Shown piece by piece: positions 7,860 through 25,232 of a stretch of 42,256 nucleotides of DNA (position 1 is its first letter; every line of letters starts with the position of its first letter). The notes beneath the pieces were generated by a model. It was given only the letters and a program-made list of their open reading frames with translations, made no database searches and was not told where the DNA came from. The position numbers were made by a program, and so were the translations under genes. This stretch comes from a virus, in IMG/VR virus record IMGVR_UViG_3300029286_000097, positions 1-42,256 of that record. One strand, 5' to 3'.

Positions 7860-7891
7860 ACAATTTTTTATATATTACCTCTCACTTAGTA

Positions 7892-8071
7892 TTACCAAGA
7901 CCAAGACCTAGACCCAGACCCAGACCTAGACCTAGACCAAGACCCAGACCTAGACCTAGACCAAGACCAAGACCAAGACCTAGACCTAGACCTAGACCAA
8001 GACCCAGACCTAGACCCAGACCTAGACCAAGACCCAGACCTAGACAAATAATTTGATAAATAAATAAACAT
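7892..8071 (-). CDS. Possible Ser/Arg/Trp/Gly repeat protein encoded by the hexamer array
   Basis: 59 codons starting MFIYLSNYLS, then alternating Ser with Arg, Gly or Trp, ending SWSW and TAA. The start is chosen because its ATG follows the upstream gene's TAA by one base (TAATATG), the junction used repeatedly here. A competing frame (7882-8106) would encode Gly-Leu repeats, with all unit-to-unit changes falling at the third base of the Leu codons. Either frame may be accidental, since any hexamer array leaves open frames. It is low-complexity and of unknown function. Confidence 0.35.
   Translation of the reverse strand: MFIYLSNYLSRSGSWSRSGSRSGSWSRSRSRSWSWSWSRSRSGSWSRSRSGSGSRSWSW
7898..8045. 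repeat. 24-copy hexamer tandem array AGACC(T/A/C)
   Basis: 24 contiguous 6-bp units plus a partial AGAC. Five positions are invariant in all units; the sixth is T in 11 units, A in 7, C in 6, and never G. The order of variants shows no clear longer period. The flanks are ordinary AT-rich sequence. It could be a coding repeat on the minus strand, a protein-binding array, or a slippage-prone variable locus. Confidence 0.95.
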
Positions 8072-8072
8072 A

Positions 8073-8411
8073 TTACTTCTGTTCTTTTGGTAATAAGTGT
8101 TTCCAAGGAAAAATATCAACAATAGAGTTAGAATTTACAAAAGCATCACCAACAGGTTCAACTTCACTTAATGAACCATTTTTAATAGCATTCATAAATC
8201 TTCCGCTATCTGCTACCCAAGAAGCATCTTCTAATTTCCATATACTACCAATAATCTTTGTTAATTTACCAACTAGATGATAAGTGACTGTTCTGATAAA
8301 AAGATTTTTACCTATTAAGTCATCTAATTTACCAATATCAAGTTTTTCTTCACTTAATAATTGGTCTTTAATTTTAGCGTAAGTTTCATCGCTAATTTGT
8401 AATGTTTTCAT
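8073..8411 (-). CDS. Unknown phage protein
   Basis: 112 residues, MKTLQISDETYAKIKDQLLS at the start, then a globular middle with FIRTVTYHLVGK and ASWVADSGRFMNAIKNG. The length and even composition suggest a compact single domain. No catalytic signature was seen and there is no transmembrane segment. The stop TAA is joined to a downstream ATG as TAATATG. Confidence 0.75.
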   Translation of the reverse strand: MKTLQISDETYAKIKDQLLSEEKLDIGKLDDLIGKNLFIRTVTYHLVGKLTKIIGSIWKLEDASWVADSGRFMNAIKNGSLSEVEPVGDAFVNSNSIVDIFPWKHLLPKEQK

Positions 8412-22647: not shown

Positions 22648-22925
22648 ATGCTTACTTCTGCACAAAATTTAGCTATCGTGCGAACAGAATTGGATGGAGT
22701 ATTTTACCAAGAATTTAATTATTCTAATGCTACTCCTTCTCAAATGACTGCTCTTACGGCTGCTATATTCAAACCACTAAATACAACTCACAAAGCTTAT
22801 ATTGAAGAAGTATTTAAAGGTTCTGAATTATTTAAGGACACTGGTGAAACTGAAGTTGTTGGTTCTACCACTCCTAAGGTCGCTAACAAATTAACGACTT
22901 ACGTAAAAGACTTTACACAAAGCAT
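22648..22925 (+). CDS. Major capsid protein, exon 1
   Basis: Codons 1-92 plus two bases of the capsid gene (MLTSAQNLAIVRTELDGVFY at the start; last full segment TYVKDFTQS). The frame runs on to a stop at 22956, but those codons belong to the intron. The 5' splice site after T22925 is proposed from a P1 helix GCAT-A with TGTGC that places the required U-G pair at the exon end. Joined to 23850-23878 and 24610-25232, it gives 930 nt, 309 residues. See findings. Confidence 0.8.
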
Positions 22926-23849
22926 AAAATTTCTGTGCCAGGCTACAGCAATGTAACCAAGAAAACTTCGTAAATTAGGTGGAACTCCTCGGTGAGGACA
23001 ATACCTAGCCAAGACTCGTAAGAGGAAGGTGTAACGACTAGAGACGAAGCCCCTAAAGTTTAGGGTGAAAGTATAGTCTGAACAACTGTAGAAAAATAGT
23101 CTTGATAAAAGATTTAATAGATGATATACTAAAGACATAATAATTAATATAAAAATTATGTCTGAAAAACACAACGAAGTATCTAAAAAATGGAGAAAAA
23201 ATAATATAGAAAAAGCTAGAAAACAAGCGAGGGAATGGGTCGCTAGACAAATAGAAGAAAAAGGTGAGGCATTTAGAAAGACCGCCAGAGAAAGAGCTTT
23301 AAAATATTATTATAACAACATTGAAAAGGTGCGAGAAAAGGATAACGAAAGAAAAAGATTATATAGACTGAATAATCAACAGCAATATAATCTCGAACAG
23401 AAAGAATATAGAAAGAATAATCCTGATAAGGTCAAGCAATATCGTATTAATAGAAAAGATGGGCAAAAGAAATACGCTCGTAAAAAGCAGATAGAAAAAT
23501 ACGGGATTACTGAAGAAATATATCATAAAATGTTTTTGAATCAAGAAGGTAAGTGTGCTATTTGTAATATGCCGTTTAATGAGAAGACTCCGAATATAGA
23601 CCATTCTCACAATAACGGAAAAGTAAGAAGTTTATTATGTAGTAGTTGTAATATTATTCTCGGACACGTAGAAAAACAATTACAAATTAATAAAAATATT
23701 TTAACTGAAATTACAAAATACCTAAAAACCTATGCCTAACAGCTAGGGGAAGCACTAATTAGTTGAGATAGATGGAAACAATCTATCAATCTGAAAAGAT
23801 TTAACAAATGAGAATTGAGTAAAGATTTGTTCGATAAACTAATAATAAG
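22926..23849 (+). other. Group I intron 1 in the capsid gene
   Basis: Core helices are visible: P3 CTTCGT (22966-22971) with ACGAAG (23044-23049), P4 AGGT/ACCT, P5 CCTC-GGT-GAGG, P7 GACTA (23036-23040) with TAGTC (23074-23078) and P8 CCCTAA/TTAGGG. The terminal G is 23849. It carries an HNH endonuclease ORF in the peripheral region after P7. Boundaries are inferred from P1 and from restoration of the capsid frame; the core is firm. Confidence 0.8.
23158..23739 (+). CDS. Intron-encoded HNH (endonuclease VII-like) homing endonuclease 1
   Basis: 193 residues. A long basic N-terminal helical region (EKARKQAREWVARQ, many Arg and Lys) is followed by the nuclease core: CAIC, then DHSHNNGKVRSLLCSSCN, matching the C-C-D-H-x-H-C-C arrangement of recombination endonuclease VII-type HNH enzymes. 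It cuts intron-less capsid genes and lets the intron spread. The start has no Shine-Dalgarno. Confidence 0.85.
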   Translation: MSEKHNEVSKKWRKNNIEKARKQAREWVARQIEEKGEAFRKTARERALKYYYNNIEKVREKDNERKRLYRLNNQQQYNLEQKEYRKNNPDKVKQYRINRKDGQKKYARKKQIEKYGITEEIYHKMFLNQEGKCAICNMPFNEKTPNIDHSHNNGKVRSLLCSSCNIILGHVEKQLQINKNILTEITKYLKTYA

Positions 23850-23878
23850 TTTCAAAAATATATTATTGTTGAACAATT
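23850..23878 (+). CDS. Major capsid protein, 29-nt exon 2
   Basis: Proposed micro-exon between the two introns: one base completes an Ile codon, then FKNILLLNN, then one base of the next Tyr codon. It is supported by a G at the end of intron 1, an 8-bp P1 for intron 2 (ATTCCCTA with TAGGGGAT) placing U-G at T23878, and an uninterrupted 310-codon joined frame. No direct transcript evidence. Confidence 0.6.
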
Positions 23879-24609
23879 CCCTATCTTTCCGCACTGCGGT
23901 CTAGGGGATAAATAAAACAGGGATAAACGGGGAAAACCCTTACCAAAGGACAACCCCGTACCAAGCTTTAGTCTAAATGGCTACTGAAGGTCGAACGACT
24001 AGATAGTGAAACTCAATTTGAGAATATAATCTATCCAAGAAACCCCTGCACCGAAAGGTGAAGATATAGTCTGAACATTGTCATAAGAATAATTATGAGA
24101 TAAGATAACTATATAATTATCATCAAACATATATGGTTATCAAATGTAAACATTGCAAAGAAGAAAAATCTGAAGAATACTTTGATTATTACAGAGGAAG
24201 AATAAACAAGTCTTGTAAAGAATGTAGAAAAAAAAATAATCAGTGGTATGCCGAAGATTTGAATGGAAAGAGAACAAAATATAAAGAGTTCTATCAGAGG
24301 AACAAAGAACGAATAGCTAAATATCGCTCTGAGCATAGACTTGAAAAGTTTTACTCTCTAACTAAAGAAACCTTTAATACAATGTTAGCAATTCAAAATA
24401 ATCAGTGTGCTATATGTGGTTCTAAGTTTGAAAATCTTAAACCCTGTGTAGACCACGACCATACTTCTGGGAAAGTAAGGGGATTATTATGCCGAAGATG
24501 TAACTTGGATTTGCAGGTTATAGAAAAAAAAGACTTCGTCATTAAAGCTCAAAATTATTTAAAATCAATGAAATAGAGGATAAAGAGCCTCTATAATAAC
24601 AAAAAACGG
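23879..24609 (+). other. Group I intron 2 in the capsid gene
   Basis: P1 with IGS TAGGGGAT (23902-23909); P3 GGATA (23921-23925) with TATCC (24032-24036); P4 CGGGG/CCCCG; P7 GACTA (23997-24001) with TAGTC (24067-24071); extra hairpins CTC-AATTT-GAG and CACC-GAAA-GGTG. The terminal G is 24609. An HNH ORF lies after the core, as in intron 1. The two introns share the P7 sequence and TAGTCTGAAC, so they are related. Confidence 0.8.
24133..24576 (+). CDS. Intron-encoded HNH (endonuclease VII-like) homing endonuclease 2
   Basis: 147 residues. The N-terminal CKHCKEEKSEEYF and CKECRKK form a zinc-ribbon-like DNA-binding part; the core has CAICGSKF, then VDHDHTSGKVRGLLC and RRCN, again the endonuclease VII-like HNH arrangement. 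Related to but shorter than the endonuclease of intron 1. It ends in TAG. Confidence 0.85.
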   Translation: MVIKCKHCKEEKSEEYFDYYRGRINKSCKECRKKNNQWYAEDLNGKRTKYKEFYQRNKERIAKYRSEHRLEKFYSLTKETFNTMLAIQNNQCAICGSKFENLKPCVDHDHTSGKVRGLLCRRCNLDLQVIEKKDFVIKAQNYLKSMK

Positions 24610-25232
24610 ATAATATGCACGGCGTATGGTCAAAATCTGTCTCTGATATGGCTATGAAAGCTCGTATCACTCAAGATGACAATGCAATGAAACTTTTCCG
24701 CAATGCGTTTACTACTGCTTTAACTGCTGATGGTTCTGCTATTTGTGCATCACACACCCTAATTGGTGGTGGCACCGTAGTTAATAACACGACTGCTGCT
24801 TTAACTCCGACTAGCTTAAACACTGGTATTGTAGCTTTAGCAGAACAGAAAGATCAGGCTGGTGTTATTCTAGGCAATCAACCAAGTTATTTAGTTGTTC
24901 CTCCTGCATTATTTAAGAAAGCCTTAGAGGTTACTGACTCTGCTTTACTAGCTGATACTGCCAATAACAATATCAACGTATATCGCAGTGCTTATGGAAT
25001 TACTGTTTATACTTCACCTTATTTAGGTGCTTCTGCTGGTGGTTCTGATACTGCTTGGTTCTTACTAGCTCGTAATCACGCTATCACTCGTTTAGTTCGC
25101 CAAGGAATCCAGACTTCTTTAAGAGGTTGGGAAATGTCTAACAATAGAACTTACTTCTACCAAGCTAATTTCCGTGAAGAAGTTTATTGTCCTGATTATG
25201 CTGGAATTTACGGTTCTACTGGTACTGTCTAA
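24610..25232 (+). CDS. Major capsid protein, exon 3
   Basis: C-terminal two thirds of the capsid protein. An ATG at 24615 lies inside NMHGVWSKSVSDMAMKAR and is not a true start. The rest (ITQDDNAMKLFRNAFTTALT, LADTANNNINVYRSAYGITV, GWEMSNNRTYFYQANFREEV) is typical of a phage major head subunit of the Mu gpT or HK97-like group: E-loop and P-domain type sequence with a beta-rich C-terminus. It builds the capsid shell. Confidence 0.85.

Follow-up and report, generated by a model that had tools for sequence, protein, structure and literature searches.

Two group I introns 25 nucleotides apart, each with an Endo VII-motif endonuclease gene, in the major capsid gene of a virus

Small exons enclosed by neighbouring group I introns have been described in phages. 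In phage phiNIT1, two group I introns in the gene for the large subunit of ribonucleotide reductase are reported to enclose a small exon, which escaped prediction and came to light by cDNA sequencing (PMC11878797). In mycobacteriophage LittleE, a group I-like intron with an endonuclease ORF lies in the capsid gene and is efficiently spliced (PMC3706429). On the protein side, a C-terminal CxxC, DHxH, R, CxxCN motif characterizes the DHHRN homing family of F-CphI (PMC6083498).

The window analysed here, a 42,256-nucleotide stretch of viral DNA, contains an essential capsid gene (22648-25232) in which the initial annotation saw a micro-exon flanked by two group I introns, both with an endonuclease ORF. 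We found both ribozyme cores and both ORFs, confirming this part of the description, whereas the exon limits had to be revised (Table 1). The locus resembles that of phiNIT1 in its arrangement, an essential phage gene with neighbouring group I introns that enclose a small exon. It differs in the gene, the phage group and the endonucleases, a term search of PMC11878797 having returned none of the Endo VII type. As in Twort orf142 and the SIOphi terminase, several group I introns occupy one virion or packaging gene; however, exon skipping is reported for those phages (PMC11878797), whereas skipping of the 25-nt middle exon would shift the frame here. LittleE likewise has an intron with an endonuclease ORF in its major capsid gene, a parallel in arrangement, but it has one intron only and a different endonuclease type. 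Finally, the endonucleases of the window share with the F-CphI/DHHRN family a C-terminal Endo VII motif (D, H, H, R, N) and a link to phage group I introns. F-CphI is nevertheless free-standing beside psbA, whereas those of the window are encoded inside a capsid gene, in different ribozymes 25 bp apart (PMC6083498). The rarity claimed for the arrangement has to be tempered, since the literature already has group I introns in phage capsid genes (PMC3706429), exon skipping and a small exon enclosed by two phage group I introns (PMC11878797), and Endo VII-motif endonucleases linked to introns (PMC6083498). What the present sequences add is a 25-nt exon that is precisely placed and serves each of the two ribozymes, and a hot spot in the capsid gene where the partners are mixed.

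Table 1. Parts of the split capsid gene and elements of its two introns, in window coordinates
Feature	Position	Strand	Length	Details
Capsid exon 1	22648..22925	+	278 nt	Codons 1-92 and two bases of codon 93; unbroken alignment to homologues uninterrupted here
P1 of intron 1	22922..22938	+		Exon GCAT with guide GTGC (22935-22938); U.G at splice site
Group I intron 1 (W1)	22926..23810	+	885 nt	Ends in G; Rfam RF00028 local match
Intron 1 core	22966..23078	+		Rfam alignment; P3 CTTCGT/ACGAAG (22966/23044), P4 TAGGT/ACCTA (22976/23003), P5 CCTC/GAGG (22987/22994), P7 GACTA/TAGTC (23036/23074), P8 CCCTAAA/TTTAGGG (23051/23059)
Endonuclease of intron 1	23158..23739	+	193 aa	PF02945, 1e-17; PHROG endonuclease VII
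Capsid exon 2 (micro-exon)	23811..23835	+	25 nt	Homologues, model rank 1, P10 of intron 1, P1 of intron 2
Group I intron 2 (W2)	23836..24608	+	773 nt	IA-like, P7.1/P7.2; Rfam RF00028 local match and covariation with the L010, L014 and L029 introns
Guide sequence of intron 2	23861..23874	+		TATTATT (P10, with exon 3 GATAATA) and GTTGAAC (P1, with exon 2 GTTCGAT)
Intron 2 core	23918..24071	+		P3 CAGGG/CCCTG (23918/24044), P4 ACGGGG/CCCCGT (23927/23954), P7 GACTA/TAGTC (23997/24067), P7.1 GATAG/CTATC (24002/24031), P8 CACC/GGTG (24049/24057); RNAalifold and pair counts on A1
Endonuclease of intron 2	24133..24576	+	147 aa	PF02945, 2e-16
Capsid exon 3	24609..25232	+	624 nt	D102 to stop; homologues; Pfam Phage_capsid_4 and Mu-like gpT

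About 100 capsid relatives were collected from public viral contigs, most of them uninterrupted at this point. The uninterrupted homologues read ...F(A/T)Q(G/S)I-E(I/L)SK(N/D)LFDD-NMHGVW... (consensus FAQGIEISKNLFDDNMHGVW), and this reading is continuous across the joined exons of Table 1. All sites with a T before the intron and a G at the intron end were combined into 6,157 distinct stop-free spliced proteins, which were scored against a profile of the uninterrupted relatives. The model joining 22925 to 23811 and 23835 to 24609 ranked first of the 6,157, with 516.4 bits. Single-intron models skipping the whole interval reached 490.2 bits at best (rank 328). The joined frame of 927 nt corresponds to 309 codons including the stop, or 308 amino acids, instead of the 310 codons initially counted. 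Exon 2 reads A GAA TTG AGT AAA GAT TTG TTC GAT, that is, the last base of I93 followed by ELSKDLFD. It is flanked in the joined protein by ...CAAAGCAT (ending at 22925) and GATAATATGCAC (starting at 24609), and the predicted peptide over the junctions is ...DFTQSIELSKDLFDDNMHGVW....

The initial annotation had placed exon 2 at 23850-23878 (29 nt) and the start of exon 3 at 24610. This choice does give an open frame of 310 codons, has the correct 5′ site for intron 1 and leaves U and G residues at the intron ends. However, with as many as 6,157 stop-free spliced proteins available from such sites, the open frame is a coincidence. The resulting protein scored 485.8 bits (rank 713 of 6,157). Its junction peptide (FKNILLLNNY; TQSIFKNILLLNNYNMHGVW) mismatches the homologue consensus and is one residue too long, and the peptide SIFKNILLLNNYNMHG does not fit the homologues' reading either. 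P10 is weak or absent (P1=3 and P10=2 for intron 1; P1=3 and P10=0 for intron 2). Moreover, the proposed segment is made up of the loop of P1 and the guide of intron 2. We regard this placement as practically untenable. The alignment with homologues, suggested at the outset as a check, thus contradicted the earlier exon 2 and exon 3 junctions; the 5′ site placed behind 22925 for intron 1 was upheld.

In group I introns, the 5′ splice site is set by P1 and the 3′ splice site by P10 (PMC3984707). By chance, a P1 of at least 4 within 20 nt was found at about 15% of T sites and a P10 of at least 4 at about 3% of G sites; P1 and P10 both of at least 6 occurred together in 5 of 11,102 random site pairs. 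As read from the sequence, both introns have a 5′ exon U paired with a guide G, a terminal G and a P10, the pairing being strong in intron 2 and modest in intron 1. At the 5′ boundary of intron 1, exon 1 ends in T (AGCAT/, the slash marking here and below the exon boundary) and is paired with GTGC, and the P10 half TTCT (22931-22934) pairs with AGAA of exon 2. This combination, P1=4 and P10=4, is missing from each close rival junction. On P1 and P10 alone, these junctions rank 9th of 357 T/G site pairs, others scoring higher; hence they rest on pairing and homologues jointly. The runner-up model keeps the same intron 2 and moves intron 1 to 22932/23818, leaving an 18-nt micro-exon and the peptide SIKFSKDLFDD. 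Its protein scored 514.2 bits, only 2.2 bits behind the best, and differs only in intron 1. But pairing drops to P1=3 and P10=1, KF replaces the homologues' E(I/L), and Rfam puts the P1 strand around GCAU/GUGC. We consider this shifted placement improbable and retain the 25-nt exon.

Local searches alone detected the two introns, which whole-window Rfam scans miss. Intron 1 matched Intron_gpI (RF00028) at 22916-23101 with 48.6 bits (E=1e-11), just below the gathering score of 50, and intron 2 at 23845-24095 with 31.3 bits (E=1.9e-6), well below it. As aligned, each has the RF00028 core from P3 to P8 with the G-binding helix P7. The core DNA of intron 1 resembles that of introns which isolated phages carry in their genes for terminase, ribonucleotide reductase and the tape measure; Rfam recognises several of these introns. 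An exact search with its core pattern found nothing, and a plain MAFFT alignment of intron 1 with these phage relatives (A2) contained too many gaps for pairs to be counted and was left out.

Intron 2 showed contiguous pairings of P1=9 and P10=9, the top of the 448 site pairs tried. Its homologues in L010, L014 and L029 exceed the Rfam gathering score. The consensus fold of these four introns comprises 38 pairs in nine helices (P3, P4, P5, P6, P6a, P7, P7.1, P7.2 and P8), 98% paired and 14 with both-sided changes. None of 500 shuffles matched this fold, and slid controls came nowhere near either. P7.1 and P7.2 lie between P7 and P3 (helices 103-107/133-137 and 113-115/122-124 of A1) and show both-sided changes, so that intron 2 is IA-like by its helices. 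The guides of the L010, L014 and L029 introns depart from that of the window yet fit the exons of their own genes (P1 7-8, P10 6-7); together, the guide and exon changes are a natural compensatory test. The close intron-less relatives of L029, namely L165 and L166, have an empty site and read FDDDIHGEW and FDDDMHGEW, as predicted for spliced L029.

Judged by sequence relatives and a predicted fold, the product is an HK97-fold major capsid protein. In a Foldseek search, the predicted structure of a capsid homologue (L001, mean pLDDT 82) matched the HK97 head 2fs3 (E=1.7e-11), and a profile search matched the Mu capsid 9jod (E=2e-7). Pfam Phage_capsid_4 was matched too. In the L001 model, the residues at the intron sites comprise the last part of a long strand plus a short helix, directly before the long helix 105-132, which corresponds to the spine helix of the HK97 fold. 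Both Rfam scores being below threshold, the introns might have decayed, the gene being a pseudogene or yielding separate fragments. However, the exons are intact and in frame, both endonucleases are intact with all motif residues, and cores and guides are intact with co-varying P1 and P10. In addition, a search of the 42-kb record found no second capsid copy. Decay is thus very unlikely.

Among 109 distinct capsid sequences, 107 were informative over this stretch and four of these carry an intron there, at or within 9 nt of the intron 2 site. The L010/L206 intron occupies the identical site (TTCGAT/GATAAT), that of L029 lies one codon beyond it, and those of L014 and L154 slightly further 3′ (AACAT/GCAT). 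The capsid stretch coding for SK-LFDD-NM is thus a repeated landing site for introns in this capsid family. Intron 1 is present in none of the four intron-bearing relatives. Along the gene, nucleotide conservation places the three downstream intron sites in the 97th-99th percentile and the intron 1 site (site A) in the 56th; site A being not unusually conserved, conservation alone does not explain intron 1.

Several further observations were made in the course of these searches. L010 (4515-4790, same in L040/L206) has another group I intron near capsid codon 15 (Rfam 84.9 bits) within which no ORF is obvious; judging by frame and P10, the last base of this intron would be A (AATCA/AGATAG) instead of the usual G. 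In the L319 contig (2252-3016), whose bin is Candidatus Zambryskibacteria, a group I-like insert containing an ORF on the minus strand breaks into a capsid homologue around residue 48. The capsid relative in L041 (5995-6615) has in-frame stops that may reflect recoding, sequencing error or decay. In Shewanella phage 1/4 (L160, 1229-1946), three Rfam group I matches are packed into 720 bases close to the tape measure gene and are perhaps further closely spaced introns. Elsewhere in the window, at 7882-8122, minus-strand ORFs of a long GL/RS tandem repeat are probably a simple-repeat tract.

The intron-encoded proteins had been called HNH endonucleases. No classical HNH Pfam or PHROG family matched either of them, and only Endo VII families (PF02945) did. 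The intron 1 protein ends in CxxC, DHSH, R, CxxCN (PF02945 over residues 111-190 of 193) and the intron 2 protein in CAIC, DHDH, R, CRRCN (residues 67-144 of 147), the latter also matching the solved T4 endonuclease VII 1e7d weakly (E=0.0065). By these motifs, both are Endo VII-motif proteins of the DHHRN, F-CphI-like type. The closest relative of the intron 1 endonuclease is that of L010, located inside an intron at the intron 2 site (45% over 193 aa, full length), and that of the intron 2 endonuclease is from L014, at the neighbouring site (56% over 146 aa). In contrast, the nearest relative of the intron 2 ribozyme is the one in L010 (83%), whereas the intron 1 ribozyme belongs to another lineage. 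Given these discordant relationships, endonuclease genes have apparently moved between ribozymes at neighbouring sites, which is the simplest reading. A search of viral contigs found no relatives of the intron 1 endonuclease although that of L010 is related, presumably because pattern seeding overlooks 45% identity.

Overall, the data make it very probable that the capsid gene of this tailed phage acquired two introns independently, 25 bp apart at a recurrent site, and that self-splicing yields the 308-aa capsid protein; the introns would presumably spread by endonuclease homing and have apparently exchanged endonucleases. The computations establish the exon limits, the two cores, the family of the endonucleases, the repeated insertion and the discordance, from which splicing in vivo, cleavage and homing are inferred. 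Each ribozyme would fold in the pre-mRNA; P1, with its U.G where cleavage occurs, would set the 5′ site, and P10 together with the terminal G the 3′ site. Splicing in vivo would then join the exons into the HK97-fold protein. Of the micro-exon, the first 4 nt would be used for P10 of intron 1 and the last 7-9 nt for P1 of intron 2, whereby 25 nt would suffice for both introns. A major, perhaps regulatory, product might also arise by exon skipping, from the 5′ site of intron 1 to the 3′ site of intron 2, as reported for adjacent group I introns in Twort and SIOphi (PMC11878797). Here, however, 25 nt is not a multiple of three and skipping would give ...TQSMIICTAYGQNLSLIWL* and no capsid; the skipped form could be a side product only, and we consider it unlikely to be a major one. 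Under the preferred reading, in which both introns are removed and the micro-exon is kept, each endonuclease would presumably cut intron-less capsid genes, the intron being copied in by homing. A more speculative extension, possible but somewhat doubtful, is that the 25-bp segment is one homing target, which both endonucleases would recognise. Two unrelated ribozymes with related, interchangeable endonucleases would have entered the same capsid motif, each intron destroying or shielding the cleavage site of the other, and the micro-exon would be a remnant of this competition.

A micro-exon cannot be placed from an open frame and splice-end letters alone; its position has to be fixed with homologues and P10 as well. 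The locus is a tidy case from nature of how short the distance between two group I introns can be, 25 nt with a complete P1 and P10 each, in a capsid gene whose protein must be made in quantity. With its neighbouring sites, discordant relationships and about 100 empty sites, this capsid family may be used to test endonuclease movement.
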